Assembly (NCBI RefSeq): GCF_000022085.1
Contig: NC_011894.1
Coordinates: forward strand, 1,886,501 to 1,950,500
Length of the DNA stretch: 64,000 nt
Source of the DNA: Methylobacterium nodulans ORS 2060
GTDB taxonomy: Bacteria > Pseudomonadota > Alphaproteobacteria > Rhizobiales > Beijerinckiaceae
Direction: 5' to 3'
Numbering within the stretch: position 1 is the first letter of the stretch; each line of letters starts with the position of its first letter. Under the pieces are notes generated by a model, which was not told where the DNA came from, searched no databases, and was given only the letters and a program-made list of their open reading frames with translations. Below are positions 45,372-50,879 of the stretch, piece after piece. The position numbers and the translations under genes were made by a program.

Positions 45372-45505
45372 GGGCGACACCTTCTGGCGGGGAGCGGCAC
45401 AGCCGCGGATCGGGCCGGATCGTATTCCGTTCGGCGCCGCGCGGCAGTAGCGTGAAGCCCCCCTCCGGCGCAACCCGCGCCATCGTCACGCCCTCGAAGA
45501 GCGAC

Positions 45506-47104
45506 ATGCCCGAGACGCCCGTCTTCGCCCGTGCAGCCTGTGCGGCCCCCCACCATTTGGCTGCCGAGAGCGGCCGCGCCGTCCTGGCCGAGGGCGGCAA
45601 CGCCGTCGAGGCGATGCTCGCCATGGCGGCCACCATCGCGGTGGTCTACCCGCACATGAACGGCATCGGCGGCGACGGCTTCTGGCTGGTGCGCGAGCCG
45701 GGCGGGCGTGTCCACACCATCGAGGCCTGCGGCCCGGCCGGCGCCCTCGCGACGATCCGGCGCTACCGCGACAAGGGCTACGATTCGATCCCCGACCGCG
45801 GCCCGGACGCCGCCGTCACGGTGGCGGGCGCGGTCGGCGGCTGGGCCCTAGCGCGGGAACTCGCCGGGTCCCTCGGCGGGCGGCTGCCGCTGTCCCTCCT
45901 GCTCGGCGAGGCGATCCGGCACGCCCGGGAGGGCGTCGCGGTCTCGGCGTCCGAGGCCCGCTATGCTCCGAAGGAGCTCGATACGCTCTACGACCAGCCG
46001 GGCTTCGCCGCGACCTTCCTGATCGACGGCAAGCCGCCGCAGGCCGGCGCGATCCGCGCACTGCCGGCGCTCGCCGCGACCCTGGAGCAGCTCGCCCATG
46101 CGGGGCTCGACGACTTCTACCGGGGGGATGTGGGGCGCGAGATCGCGGCCGACCTGGAGCGGGCCGGAAGCCCGGTGACACGCGCCGATCTCGACGGCTA
46201 CCGGGCGCTGGCCCGCGCGCCGCTCGCGGTGCGGCTCGCCAAGGCCACGGTCTATAACTGCCAGCCGCCGAGCCAGGGCCTCGCCGCCCTGATGATCCTC
46301 GGGATCGTCGAGAAGCTGGGATCGATCCCGCCCGAGACGCCGGCCTGGTGCCACGCGCTGATCGAGGCGACGAAGCGCGCCTTCCGGGTGCGCGACGCGG
46401 TGGTGACGGATTTCGACCGGCTGCGGCACGACCCCGCCGCCTTCCTCACCCCCGAGCGCCTCGCCCGGGAGGCCGCCGCCATCGCGATGGACCGTGCCGC
46501 GGCCTACCCGCTGCGTGCGTCCGGCGATGGCGACACGGTGTGGATGGGCGCGATCGACGGCAGCGGCCTTTCCGTCTCCTACATCCAGTCGGTCTACTGG
46601 GAATTCGGGTCCGGCCTCGTCCTGCCGGCGACCGGCATCGTGTGGCAGAACCGCGGCACCTCCTTCTCGCTCGATCCCAAGGCCACCAACCCGCTGGAGC
46701 CCGGCCGCAAGCCCTTCCACACGCTCAACCCGGCGCTCGCCGTCCTCGATGACGGCCGGGTAGTCTCCTATGGCAGCATGGGCGGGGACGGGCAGCCGCA
46801 ATTCCAGGCGCAGGTCTTCACCCGCTACGCCCTGTACGGGATGGGCGTCGCCGATGCGGTCGACGCGCCGCGCCTCCTCTTCGGGCGCACCTGGGGCGCC
46901 GAATCGATGACCGTGAAGGTGGAGGACCGCTTCGATCCCTCCTGCATCGCCGCTTTGCGCCGCTTCGGCCACGAGATCGAGGAGCTCGGCGGCTCCTACG
47001 TCGACTCGCTCGGCCATGCGGGACTGCTGGTGCGCCATCCCGGCAACGGGCGGGTCGAGGCGACGCACGATCCGCGCTCGGATGGCGGGGCGGCCGGGAT
47101 CTGA
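45506..47104 (+). CDS. Gamma-glutamyltransferase family protein (YwrD-like)
   Basis: 532 residues. Ntn-hydrolase of the gamma-glutamyltranspeptidase family; autocleavage would expose the nucleophilic Thr in GDGDTVWMGAIDGSGLSVSYIQS at about residue 345. Other signatures: GGNAVEAMLAMAATIAVVYPHMNGIGGDGFWLV, NCQPPSQGLAALMIL, LDPKATNPLEPGRKPFHTLNPALA, SMGGDGQPQ. No signal peptide, so cytosolic, unlike periplasmic GGTs; this fits the YwrD/acylase-like branch of unknown substrate. ATG 45506 follows GAAGAG. A family A repeat and the IS110 element start right after its stop. Confidence 0.87.
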   Translation: MPETPVFARAACAAPHHLAAESGRAVLAEGGNAVEAMLAMAATIAVVYPHMNGIGGDGFWLVREPGGRVHTIEACGPAGALATIRRYRDKGYDSIPDRGPDAAVTVAGAVGGWALARELAGSLGGRLPLSLLLGEAIRHAREGVAVSASEARYAPKELDTLYDQPGFAATFLIDGKPPQAGAIRALPALAATLEQLAHAGLDDFYRGDVGREIAADLERAGSPVTRADLDGYRALARAPLAVRLAKATVYNCQPPSQGLAALMILGIVEKLGSIPPETPAWCHALIEATKRAFRVRDAVVTDFDRLRHDPAAFLTPERLAREAAAIAMDRAAAYPLRASGDGDTVWMGAIDGSGLSVSYIQSVYWEFGSGLVLPATGIVWQNRGTSFSLDPKATNPLEPGRKPFHTLNPALAVLDDGRVVSYGSMGGDGQPQFQAQVFTRYALYGMGVADAVDAPRLLFGRTWGAESMTVKVEDRFDPSCIAALRRFGHEIEELGGSYVDSLGHAGLLVRHPGNGRVEATHDPRSDGGAAGI

Positions 47105-47132: not shown

Positions 47133-47153
47133 TCCGCTCTTCCCGCTCCCTCT
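47133..47153 (+). repeat. Left part of the family A repeat split by IS110
   Basis: TCCGCTCTTCCCGCTCCCTCT up to the CT core at 47152-47153; the repeat resumes with TTCCCGGATC at 48329. Joining both halves gives CGCTCCCTCTTTCCCGGATC, one base different from copy 1 at 32454-32525. Confidence 0.85.
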
Positions 47154-47189
47154 TGCATGTTTGACGGGCCGACCAGCGCACCAAGCTGT

Positions 47190-47360
47190 GAGGTGCGTCG
47201 CGGCCGGTGGCCACCGGCCGCGACGCGGGCGGCCGGGATCGATCTCCCTCTAGGATTGGCACCGTGGGAAAGCAGGATCCGGCCGCCCTCTGGCTCTTGT
47301 CCTGAACAGATGCTGGGGAGCAAGTCCCGTATGCAAGGCAAGGAAGTGTCCAAACAAGAG
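47190..47360 (+). ncRNA. Bridge RNA of the IS110 element
   Basis: Predicted from structure and pairing. 5' hairpin: 16-bp perfect palindrome at 47195-47226. Target loop: 10-bp stem 47227-47236/47279-47288 enclosing CTCCCTCT (47244-47251), identical to the left target and core at 47146-47153, and GGGAAAG (47266-47272), complementary to core plus right target CTTTCCC at 48327-48333. Donor loop: stem CTCTTGT (47294-47300)/ACAAGAG (47354-47360) enclosing ACAGATGCT (47306-47314), identical to the right end 48320-48328, and ATGCAAG (47331-47337), complementary to CTTGCAT at the left end 47152-47158. The arrangement and order match the bridge RNA described for IS621. Exact transcript ends are not visible. 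Confidence 0.85.
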
Positions 47361-48311
47361 ACCGCGGGCAAGTCTAGCGTGGGGATCGACGTCAGCAAGA
47401 GCTGGCTCGACGTCCACGTCCTCCCCTCCGGCCAAGCCCAGCGGTTCGCCAATACCGAGGTCGGCATCCGGCAGCTCAAGCGCTGGCTTGGGCGCTTTGC
47501 TCTGGGGCTGGTCGTGGTCGAGGCCACCGGCAAGTGGCACCGCCAGACCCGCCGCAGCCTGCATGCCTCGGGCCTGCCGGTCGCCGTCGTCGATCCGTTT
47601 CGGGTGCGCATGTTCGCCAAGGCGCAAGGCATCTGGGCCAAGACCGATCGGCTCGATGCCCGCGTGCTGGCGCAGTTTGCCGCGGTGATGGCCCCCCCGC
47701 AGCGCCCGCCGGCCTCGGACGCGCTCGAAGCGCTCCAGGAACTGGTCGCGGCCCGCGACAGCGCCGTGGCCGAACAAACCGCCCTCAAGAACCAGCTGGC
47801 CGCGGCCGCAAGCCCGTTCCTGATCCGCCAGCTCCAGGACCGTCTGGCCAGGATCGCCGCGGACATCGAGGCCCTTGCCGGCGAGATCCGCCGGCTCATC
47901 GCGGCCGATCCCGGACTGGCCCGGCGGCATGCCATCCTGGTCTCGATCCCCTCGATCGGGGACACGATCGCGGCCACCCTGGTGGCCAGCCTGGCCGAGC
48001 TGGGCACCTGCAGCAGCCGGCAGATCGGCCTGCTGGCGGGCCTGGCGCCGGTCGCCGACGATTCCGGCGCGCGCCAGGGCGTGCGGGTCATCTGGGGCGG
48101 CCGCCCGCCCGTGCGCCGCGTCCTCTACCTCGCGGCGCTCTCGGCCGCCCGCCACAACGCCGGCCTGAAAGCCTTCCACGAACGCCTGATCGCCAACGGC
48201 AAGAAGCCAAAGTGCGCCATCATCGCCGTGGCCCGCAAGCTCGCCGTGCTGGCCAACAGCCTCATCGCTCAGGACCGCCTCTGGACGCCAAATCAGCCCC
48301 AACAGGCTTGA
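47331..48311 (+). CDS. IS110-family bridge-RNA-guided recombinase
   Basis: 326 residues, complete. N-terminal RuvC-like DEDD domain: D20 in VGIDVSKSW, E64 in VVEATGKW, D106 and D109 in AKTDRLDA. A coiled-coil region (about 125-200) joins it to the C-terminal Tnp_20 domain (LVSIPSIGDTIAATLVASLAELG; GLAPVADDSGARQGVRVIWGG) with the candidate catalytic serine S245. All key residues are present, so the enzyme looks active. The ATG at 47331 is also the first codon of the right donor guide; GTG 47346, or GTG 47379 just before the domain, are alternative starts that would free the RNA from translation. Codon use is similar to the host. Confidence 0.93.
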   Translation: MQGKEVSKQETAGKSSVGIDVSKSWLDVHVLPSGQAQRFANTEVGIRQLKRWLGRFALGLVVVEATGKWHRQTRRSLHASGLPVAVVDPFRVRMFAKAQGIWAKTDRLDARVLAQFAAVMAPPQRPPASDALEALQELVAARDSAVAEQTALKNQLAAAASPFLIRQLQDRLARIAADIEALAGEIRRLIAADPGLARRHAILVSIPSIGDTIAATLVASLAELGTCSSRQIGLLAGLAPVADDSGARQGVRVIWGGRPPVRRVLYLAALSAARHNAGLKAFHERLIANGKKPKCAIIAVARKLAVLANSLIAQDRLWTPNQPQQA

Positions 48312-48328
48312 CGCCAAACACAGATGCT

Positions 48329-48378
48329 TTCCCGGATCTCCTTCCGCTGACGCTGCATGCGCCGGGACAGGGAGGGAA
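48329..48378 (+). repeat. Right part of the family A repeat split by IS110
   Basis: TTCCCGGATCTCCTTCCGCT continues to GCGCCGGGACAGGGAGG, as in copies 1 and 2. Confidence 0.85.
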
Positions 48379-48603: not shown

Positions 48604-49203
48604 TTAGCGCGGCGCGCGCTTGGCCAGGATCCGCTGCAGGGTGCGGCGGTGCATGTTGAGCCGGCGGGCCGTCTCCGAGACGTTGCGGTTGCACAGCTCG
48701 TAGACGCGCTGGATGTGCTCCCAGCGCACCCGGTCGGCGGACATCGGGTTCTCCGGCGGGTCGGCCCGCTCGCCCGGCTGGGCCATCAGCGTGCCGTGGA
48801 TCTCGTCCGCATCGGCGGGCTTCGCGAGGTAGTCGAACGCGCCGAGCTTCACTGCCGTCACGGCGGTCGCGATGTTGCCGTAGCCCGTCAGGATCACGCC
48901 CCGGGCCTCCGGGCGGCGCTCCTTCAGGCGGGCGATCACGTCGAGGCCGTTGCCGTCCGCAAGCCGCATGTCGATGACCGCGAAGGCCGGCGGATGGGCA
49001 TCCACCAGCGACACGCCCTCGGCCACGCTCTCGGCCACCTGCACCTGATAGCCGCGCGCCTCCATGGCGCGGGCGAGCCGGGTCGAGAACGGCTTGTCGT
49101 CGTCCACGATCAGCAGGCTGCGATCCGCATGAGCGGCGAGCGGATCGCCCTCCGGGACGGTGCCGGAACTCGCCGGCGTGCTCAAGGTTCCGTGCTGCGT
49201 CAT
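48604..49203 (-). CDS. regA: Redox response regulator RegA/PrrA/ActR
   Basis: 199 residues. Receiver domain at 30-145 with acidic pocket DDD 35-37, phospho-acceptor D79 (AVIDMRLADGNG), the T/K switch residues (VILTGYGNIATAV; YLAKPADADE). A Pro-containing linker (ERADPPENPMSADR) leads to a Fis-type helix-turn-helix (VRWEHIQRVYELCNRNVSETARRLNMHRRTLQRILAKRAPR), nearly invariant in the RegA family. Controls photosynthetic, respiratory, carbon and nitrogen genes in response to quinone redox state. ATG 49203 with GAGGAG about 9 bp upstream; a TTG one codon earlier is possible. regB follows upstream in the same direction, 41 bp away. Confidence 0.95.
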   Translation of the reverse strand: MTQHGTLSTPASSGTVPEGDPLAAHADRSLLIVDDDKPFSTRLARAMEARGYQVQVAESVAEGVSLVDAHPPAFAVIDMRLADGNGLDVIARLKERRPEARGVILTGYGNIATAVTAVKLGAFDYLAKPADADEIHGTLMAQPGERADPPENPMSADRVRWEHIQRVYELCNRNVSETARRLNMHRRTLQRILAKRAPR

Positions 49204-49244
49204 CAAGCGACGCTCCTCACCATTCGTTCTGTTTCTTCAGCACC

Positions 49245-50624
49245 TTATATAGGAACATCGCGGGCCTGCGTCAGGGGGAGGGGTCCGTTCGTCCCCCCGA
49301 ATCGTCGCACAGTCACCTCCCTCTCGAAAACGTGACGGGGCCACGCGATCCGCACCACGGCGCCGGTCGAGGGGGCGGCGGCGTTGGCGAGCATGATCTG
49401 GGCGCCCGAGCGCTCGATCAGGGTCTTGGCGATGAACAGGCCGAGGCCAAGGCCCGACCCGCCCTCCTGGCTGTCCGTCCGGGATGCGCCGCGCGTGGTG
49501 ACATAGGGCTCGCCCACCCGCAGCAGCACGTCGGGAGCGAAGCCCGGGCCGTCGTCCCGGATCTCCAGCCAGACCCGGTCGGCATTCCAGCGCGCCTCGA
49601 TGATCACCCGGCTCTCCGCGAAGTCGACGGCGTTGTCGACGATGTTCGATAGGCCGTAGAGCACGCCCGGATTGCGCCGGCAGGTCGGCTCCGGCCCGTC
49701 CCCGCGGGCCGAGATGTCGAGCACGATGCCGAGCGCCCGCTGGGGGGCCACCAGCTCCTCCACGAGGTGGCTGAGGGTGATCGTCTCGAGGAAGCCCGAC
49801 TGGTCGTCGTCGAGGGAGGTCAGCTTCGAGAGGATGCCGCGGCAGCGCTCCACCTGCTCGCGCAGGAGCTTCAGGTCCTCGGCGACGGCGGGCGTGGCGG
49901 TGGGGCCGAGCGCCCGGTCGAGCTCGTTGACGACGACCGTGATGGTGGCGAGCGGCGTGCCGAGCTCGTGCGCCGCCGCTGCCGCGAGCCCGTCGAGCTG
50001 CGAGAGGTGCTGCTCGCGGGCGAGGACGAGTTCGGTCGCGGCGAGGGCCTGGGCGAGCTGGCGCGCTTCCTCGGCGACCCGCCACGCATAGACGCCCGTG
50101 AAGGCGATGCCGAGCAGGATCGCCGTCCAGACCCCCGACACATACAGGAAGGGGAACTCCATCTTCTCCGCCGAGAACCAGGGCAGCGGGCGGTGAACGA
50201 GGGCGAGGAGCGTCGAGAGACCCACCGCGAACAGCCCGAGGGCGAGCGTGTGGACCGGCGGCAGCGCCGTCGCCGAGATGAGGACCGGGGCGAGGAAGAG
50301 CAGGGAGAACGGATTCTGCAATCCGCCCGTCAGGAACAGGAGAGCGGCGAGCTGCACGATGTCGAAGGCCAGCAGCAGGGCGGCGGCGGTGTCGCTCAAT
50401 CGGTAACTCGCAGGAAACCGGACCCGCAGCAGCAGGTTGAGCCACGACGAGGCGGCGATGACGAGGAAGCACCAGCCGAAGGGCAGGGGCAGGCCGAGGC
50501 CGAAATGCGCGCCCGCCACGGCCGCGCTCTGCCCCGTGATGGCGAGCCAGCGCAGGCGCACGAGGGTGTCGAGGCGCAGGTGGCGCGCATCGTGCACGAG
50601 ATCGATCGGCGTGGCCTCTGTCAT
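49245..50624 (-). CDS. regB: Redox sensor kinase RegB/PrrB/ActS
   Basis: 459 residues. Six membrane helices at about 25-180 include the ubiquinone-sensing motif GGLQNPFSLLF at 100-110. The H-box AAAAHELGTPLATI has phospho-His H219; a cysteine at about residue 261 (VERCRGIL) sits where the redox-active Cys of RegB is found, about 40 residues after the His. The ATP-binding lid shows NIVDNAVDFA, DDGPGF, GGSGLGLGLFIAKTL. Start at ATG 50624 (MTEATPIDLVHDARHLRLDTLVRLRWL). Cotranscribed with regA. Confidence 0.93.
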   Translation of the reverse strand: MTEATPIDLVHDARHLRLDTLVRLRWLAITGQSAAVAGAHFGLGLPLPFGWCFLVIAASSWLNLLLRVRFPASYRLSDTAAALLLAFDIVQLAALLFLTGGLQNPFSLLFLAPVLISATALPPVHTLALGLFAVGLSTLLALVHRPLPWFSAEKMEFPFLYVSGVWTAILLGIAFTGVYAWRVAEEARQLAQALAATELVLAREQHLSQLDGLAAAAAHELGTPLATITVVVNELDRALGPTATPAVAEDLKLLREQVERCRGILSKLTSLDDDQSGFLETITLSHLVEELVAPQRALGIVLDISARGDGPEPTCRRNPGVLYGLSNIVDNAVDFAESRVIIEARWNADRVWLEIRDDGPGFAPDVLLRVGEPYVTTRGASRTDSQEGGSGLGLGLFIAKTLIERSGAQIMLANAAAPSTGAVVRIAWPRHVFEREVTVRRFGGTNGPLPLTQARDVPI

Positions 50625-50879
50625 GCCACCACGATAGCGCGGGAAAGGCTGCCGGCCAGAGGCTGCCGCCGCCGAAGGCGCGGCAGGATAATGCCGATCT
50701 CGCGGGCATGCCTGCGACGAAAATGGCACAGCGCTGTCTCTTTGGTATGATATTGCACTTTGGTCGAGTCTCTTGCCCTTGCGTCCGCTCAGTGGAACCA
50801 TAACTTAGAATCAGCAGTTGGGACCGGGCTCTTTGGCGGCGTCCCGGCGCTGCTGGTTCCGAGAACGGGCGGTGGCGGC

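Follow-up and report, generated by a model that had tools for sequence, protein, structure and literature searches.

An insertion sequence of the IS110 family in the genome of Methylobacterium nodulans ORS 2060 raises the question of whether its copies are led to their sites by an RNA encoded in the element itself. The element lies in a stretch of 64,000 nucleotides (contig NC_011894.1, positions 1,886,501 to 1,950,500), here called the window, by whose numbering its features are given, on the plus strand unless stated otherwise. Its body covers 47154..48326 (1,173 bp, or 1,175 bp with one core), the ends being set from 15 differently flanked copies. To its left is a gene which we take, from its translation, to be gamma-glutamyltransferase-like (45452-47104), and to its right presumably a response regulator/histidine kinase pair (48604-50801), likewise named from the translations. 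The element, whose recombinase gene is open, very probably belongs to the IS621-like group of IS110; it carries a predicted left-end bridge RNA that matches both the target and the element's own ends, and it likely works like IS621. An intact RNA-guided recombination system had been proposed here in a preliminary description of the locus, and this proposal is supported by sequence tests, i.e., Pfam domains, kinship with IS621 and ISCro4, a covariance match, the agreement of guides with flanks and the flanks of further copies. Among the matches listed in literature searches on ISMno/IS110 and on M. nodulans insertion sequences, no paper dealt with this element.

The element, its recombinase and its guides

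The recombinase gene (47331..48311) encodes a protein of 326 aa, with a DEDD_Tnp_IS110 domain in its N-terminal part (Pfam, 1e-22) and a C-terminal Transposase_20 domain (PF02371, 3.3e-16). The residues that had been claimed for it are all present, i.e., D20, E64, D106 and D109 in the N-terminal part and S245 within a DDSGAR motif that aligns with the S-G of ISCro4. By sequence, the recombinase resembles two solved chains in a phmmer search, those of ISCro4 (5.8e-38) and IS621 (2.2e-35), and no others matched. The stop codon is followed by 15 bp only before the right end is reached.

A core CT, as proposed earlier, was seen at both the left junction (47152..47153) and the right junction (48327..48328) in 15/15 copies. 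The left core is preceded by the host sequence CTCCCT (47146..47151), which is the left target (LT) flank, and the right core is followed by the host sequence TTCCC (48329..48333), the right target (RT) flank, which is the same in 15/15 copies; the right end of the element, i.e., the left donor, reads ACAGATG (48320..48326).

Four guide segments can be read in the left end. The left target guide (LTG) CTCCCTCT at 47244..47251 equals 47146-47153, its positions 47244-47249 being the LT flank, and the match stops at 8 nt, with a different ninth base. The right target guide (RTG) GGGAAAG at 47266..47272 is the reverse complement of CTTTCCC at 48327-48333. The left donor guide (LDG) ACAGATGCT at 47306..47314 equals 48320-48328, and the right donor guide (RDG) ATGCAAG at 47331..47337, which also contains the recombinase start codon, is the reverse complement of CTTGCAT at 47152-47158. 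The preliminary description had reported these matches to the element's own ends and to both target sides, and they proved exact base for base and correctly placed. Each of the four words occurs once within the 247 bases of 47154-47400, in the bridge-RNA order; when the left end was shuffled 20,000 times with its dinucleotides preserved, at least two of the four were found in 10 shuffles, and at least three in none.

Copies in the M. nodulans genome

A search of the genome (8,839,022 bases in 8 contigs) yielded 15 full copies among the best 40 of 416 candidates, of which contig C7 carries 14 and C1 the other, and the covariance model R1 described below finds the same 15 places. The copies, each at a different place, differ from the window copy by 0–2 changes, and the bridge-RNA region is identical in 15/15. 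In three of them (L011, L012 and L013), the recombinase gene has a 1-bp frameshift while the bridge-RNA region is unaltered, suggesting that they are likely mobile only with the enzyme of another copy. These frameshifts would fit an element that is an immobile relic, with inherited structure and guides and nothing moving today. However, the gene is open in 12/15 copies, among them the window copy, with which seven others are identical, and the 0–2 differences point to recent spread, all of which makes a relic improbable.

The right flank is CT-TTCCC, matching the right guide, in 15/15 copies, whereas the left flank is CTCCCTCT in 12, CACCCTCT in one, CTCCCGCT in one and TGACCTCT in one. The left guide is thus matched in full in 12/15 copies, while two miss 1 base and one, L014, misses 3 and matches at 5/8 positions only, suggesting either that left pairing is not strictly needed or that the flank of L014 was rearranged later. 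The flanks of other copies had been named beforehand as the place where the guide assignment could fail; the right guide was matched in all 15 and the whole left guide in 12, counts that are not fully independent because the sites are repeats. Around the core, filled and empty sites (at different loci) read alike, in keeping with insertion at a specific target and no further duplication.

REP-like repeats as targets

The target is held by a REP-like palindromic repeat (48329..48367). A 24-base piece of this repeat has 144 occurrences in the genome with at most two mismatches, compared with 1 for the reversed control. All 15 copies touch this dispersed repeat family, at least on the right side (L014 on the right side only), and it is likely because of such targets that the element has 15 dispersed copies. 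IS110 members in REPs, ISRm19 of Sinorhizobium included, appear in the available text of an earlier report (PMC1525189).

The exact 13-base target CTCCCTCTTTCCC was found unfilled six times, which together with the 12 filled ones makes 18 exact sites. The comparison of filled with empty sites used 61 unfilled sites within one mismatch of CNCCCTCTTTCCCGG, 30 of which were read for their repeat context; unfilled sites that depart further from it do not enter the counts. Sorted by the position of the mismatch, the ratio of filled to empty was 12/6 for exact sites, 0/26 for sites with a mismatch in the right half only, 3/24 for the left half only, 0/3 for core-only mismatches and 0/2 for mixed ones. 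A mismatch in either half goes with an empty site (Fisher, exact vs. right half, 9e-7; exact vs. left half, 2e-4). The right half tends to be stricter than the left, a difference that is not significant between the two mismatch classes (Fisher p 0.24), and the TTCCGGG subfamily, which is never filled, also departs further downstream of the target. The genome presents a natural experiment on bridge-RNA specificity, in which a constant guide faces many REP-like sites that are nearly identical and show a clear pattern of filled and empty ones, and the six empty exact targets, all located, predict where the element would land next.

The REP-like repeats often occur as inverted pairs about 109–111 bases apart, resembling BIMEs, e.g., at C7:1482066-1482198 and C7:2041610-2041744. 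An origin of the repeats from a RAYT was considered but found no support, as the search returned one Y1_Tnp fragment of 34 positions that reached the family cut-off only together with its neighbours.

Guides and flanks in related elements

Relatives of the recombinase were found by protein search in 27 of 61 genomes, in 41 of 397 genomes of the same order (E 1e-40) and in 5 of 385 genomes of the same class (1e-60), with the M. nodulans genome counted each time. The nearest relative (75% aa identity, genome G240) has 8 copies among the best 40 of 241 candidates. Its RTG is GGGAGAG, facing CTCTCCC, and this right guide is matched 7/7 in 8/8 copies, including four copies (L123-L126) at sites that by eye are unlike its repeat. 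Its left guide is matched partially; by eye, the four copies that lie in repeats agree with it at 4 of 6 bases outside the core. In four elements on Rhizobium plasmids, the RTG is GGATGAG and the right flank CTCATCC in 4/4.

Across 8 related elements, the RTG slot matched its own flank at 4.6 of 5 non-core positions, compared with a mean of 2.75 when flanks were reassigned. The true assignment was the best of all 40,320, with two equally good (itself and the swap of two identical guides); the RTGs of L031, L093 and L095 each missed one base. A broader test searched the whole left end with no slot chosen and covered 33 element families at 68 loci. The 126 loci entered were reduced to 120 (5 lacked a usable match and 1 was a duplicate), of which 49 were dropped for the absence of the fixed end motifs, and the 71 kept included 3 duplicates. 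On the left, own flanks matched at 6.52 of 8 positions vs. 5.73 ± 0.10 for swapped ones, and on the right at 6.49 of 7 vs. 5.34 ± 0.11; in both cases, 0 of 20,000 swaps were as good, and the outcome was unchanged when the family of the window element was taken out. A full 7/7 right match was present in at least one copy in 18/33 families.

Guides thus change together with flanks, which bears on whether the recombinase protein itself might read the REP-like hairpin, the guide-like words being coincidence or remnants. Although all 15 copies in M. nodulans touch one repeat family, at least on the right side, as such recognition would have it, related recombinases are found at different targets with guides changing along, and L123-L126 are off their repeat (by eye) yet retain a right guide matched 7/7. 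Recognition by the protein itself is therefore very unlikely, and steering of the copies to their sites by the predicted RNA is the likely reading of these sequence comparisons.

A second IS110 element in the same genome (41% aa identity) has five copies, L153-L157 (C1:99454, C5:431337 and C7:4877471, 1247929 and 5928829), with weak left matches of at best 5–6 of 8 anywhere in its left end. Two of its copies, L156 and L157, sit in the same REP-like repeat, with the core about 16 bases upstream of the site used by the first element and with an RTG GACAGAG facing CTCTGTC. Two relatives have unusual ends. L093 carries the 18-base CTTGCATATTGGATAGGC in tandem duplicate at its left end and an extra G before its right core, and in L185, by eye, the gene is preceded by two runs of left-end sequence and the right end is followed by a further target-loop-like stretch, a layout resembling two elements inserted in tandem.

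Predicted structure of the RNA

No Rfam family matches the window at the gathering score, and a covariance model, R1, was therefore made for this study from seven relatives, with the window sequence excluded. A covariance search over the left end had been called for in the preliminary description, and R1 finds the predicted bridge RNA there, matching 47195..47343 with 140.6 bits (E 1.4e-25). Over the whole genome, R1 finds the 15 element copies and nothing further at E 0.001 among the best 150 of 5,112 candidates. A weak minus-strand match on the palindrome (47151-47226, 28.9 bits, E 4e-4) was taken as an echo of the palindrome, and five more matches in the window (E 0.23 to 8.5) were taken as noise.

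Structure statistics were obtained from ten aligned left ends, with that of the window among them. The 5′ stem-loop is a perfect 32-bp palindrome (47195..47226) and shows double changes in 9 of its 12 outer pairs. The stem of the target-binding loop, formed by 47227..47241 and 47275..47288, shows double changes in 9/13 pairs, and its 13 pairs replace the 10 bp described previously. The stem of the donor-binding loop consists of CTTGTC (47296..47301) and GGCAAG (47337..47342), the latter inside the recombinase gene; it has 6 pairs instead of the 7 bp described previously, is poorly paired in two of the ten aligned rows, and has 86.7% of its cells paired and no double changes. The donor loop also contains a hairpin with a Shine-Dalgarno-like GGGGAG (47315..47320), in which GGGA pairs with TCCC (47325-47328), and 3/4 pairs of this hairpin are invariant across the ten left ends.

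For the named structure as a whole, 93.1% of cells are paired and 19/37 pairs show double changes. Its values of pairing, double changes and covariation were reached by 0/500 shuffles, and 12/500 attained the count of further pair types, which is one of five measures of covariation; when the partners were slid along the alignment, the pairing fell to 36–50%. The covariation sits in the 5′ and target stems, whereas the donor stem and the hairpin are nearly invariant and show none. The window RNA folded alone is moderately better than its shuffles (z −2.35). RNAalifold also proposed that the RDG side pairs with the nine bases that open the left end; this pairing was read as donor complementarity rather than a stem and was excluded from the structure counts.

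Membership of the IS1111 group, with its RNA in the right end and longer subterminal repeats, can practically be dismissed, since the element has the DEDD and Transposase_20 domains in common with that group but carries the full-strength predicted RNA match in its left end, has merely 15 bp between stop codon and right end, and matches only ISCro4 and IS621 among solved chains.

A start codon inside the donor loop

The RDG ATGCAAG supplies the first two recombinase codons, and the hairpin of the donor loop contains GGGGAG ten bases upstream. All 111 proteins of 326 aa (of 120 listed, that of the window included) begin with MQG; position 4 is K in 107/111 and position 5 is E in 100/111, after which conservation falls. 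At the nucleotide level, nine elements share with the window an identity of 1.00 over the RDG and 0.92 over the stem, then 0.58 and 0.42 over the next stretches and 0.79 at the GID. Residues 1-11 of the recombinase are predicted to be disordered (pLDDT <50, a range shared by the catalytic-serine loop 241-255), and residue 15 is where the first strand starts, suggesting that it is likely the RNA, and not the protein fold, that keeps the first codons conserved.

Alternative GTG starts at codons 6 and 17 of the window gene are possible but unlikely, because the former is not conserved among relatives and the latter is inside the first strand. In five relatives (L093, L198, L095, L204 and L094), no ATG, GTG or TTG was found by eye between the donor loop and the GID; in L204 and L094, the RDG is altered and the start is just upstream of it (by eye). 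In other lineages, comprising 39 elements, the start is downstream of the RDG; in four of these (L097, L099, L100 and L101), the RDG contains an ATG in frame as well, which makes their start ambiguous. In a tree of 49 proteins, a single change accounts for the ten elements starting in the donor loop (support 76/67; 74% of bootstrap trees), which form one group with moderate support; 24 of the 39 outside elements had been labelled first and were checked afterwards.

The donor loop encloses the start codon together with a likely ribosome site, so that the RNA would serve both as guide and as leader of the message. A switch between these two roles is plausible. The predicted mean unpaired probability is 0.39–0.42 for the ribosome site (47316-47321) and 0.42–0.49 for the AUG, i.e., the fold hides the ribosome site only partly, which speaks against a switch by fold alone. 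A fuller version, which we offer tentatively and would not rate an even bet, makes the donor loop a double-duty switch; with the RDG as start codon and the ribosome site in the loop hairpin, one transcript could not be guide and message at once, the recombinase, by binding its own leader as bridge RNA, would stop its own translation, and the left end would be locked to the first codons. If the overlap does regulate the recombinase, it would answer how the element balances the production of guide and enzyme, and a class of programmable recombinases would have a built-in off switch. A literature search combining bridge RNA, recombinase, start codon and IS110 gave nothing matching beyond a gene-editing review (by title), and the term "start codon" is absent from the main text of PMC11208160.

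Proposed mechanism and comparison with known systems

We infer transcription, RNA–protein binding, a circle and catalysis, in the following order. The element would excise as a circle, in which a predicted −35 half TTGACG (48308..48313), overlapping the stop codon, and a predicted −10 half CATGTT (47156..47161) would be joined as TTGACG-N17-CATGTT. The best hexamer pair across the joint is likewise a TTGA word with a 17-nt spacer in 29/33 families, with L072, L107, L113 and L204 as the exceptions. The promoter so formed would give an RNA of roughly 180 nt. Its first loop would pair with the target CTCCCTCT|TTCCC and its second with ACAGATG-CT-TGCAT at the joint of the circle, after which the recombinase would exchange strands at the CT core.

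Bridge RNAs have been predicted in 85.7% of IS110-group elements by Durrant et al., whose report, in the portion available, also describes REP targets, a joint promoter and longer RTGs in orthologues (PMC11208160). As this kind of system is described there, the present element belongs to a known kind, while its overlap of guide and gene is unusual. According to the accessible parts of two reports (PMC11208160; PMC11208158), it shares with IS621 of E. coli a DEDD-serine recombinase, the CT core, a left-end RNA (predicted here) with the order LTG-RTG-LDG-RDG and a 5′ stem-loop followed by two looped stems, and REP targets; the circle-joint promoter of IS621 has a predicted counterpart in the present element. 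In contrast to these likenesses, the two recombinases are only distantly alike (phmmer 2.2e-35), and the start codon lies inside the donor loop in the present element, unlike in IS621. The RTG pairs here through 5 non-core bases, whereas that of wild-type IS621 is given in those parts as 4 bp with the core, and the RDG is contiguous over 7 bases here but discontiguous in IS621 (PMC11208160; PMC11208158). The nearest solved recombinase is that of ISCro4 (chain 9t56, 5.8e-38), a comparison made by recombinase sequence alone.

Two further systems share some of these features. ISPpu9 of Pseudomonas putida also has its copies, seven in number, in REPs, and its 5′ leader folds, hindering tnp translation; unlike what is seen here, it is regulated by two small RNAs, and an overlap of donor guide and start codon is not mentioned for it in the available excerpt of that report (PMC8450116). 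The seekRNA of ISEc21, another IS110 family member, is, in the text available, a left-end RNA selecting the target, with a circle and joint promoter, all of the kind predicted here; it is reported as 74 nt, and ISEc21 has another target than the present element (PMC11187229).
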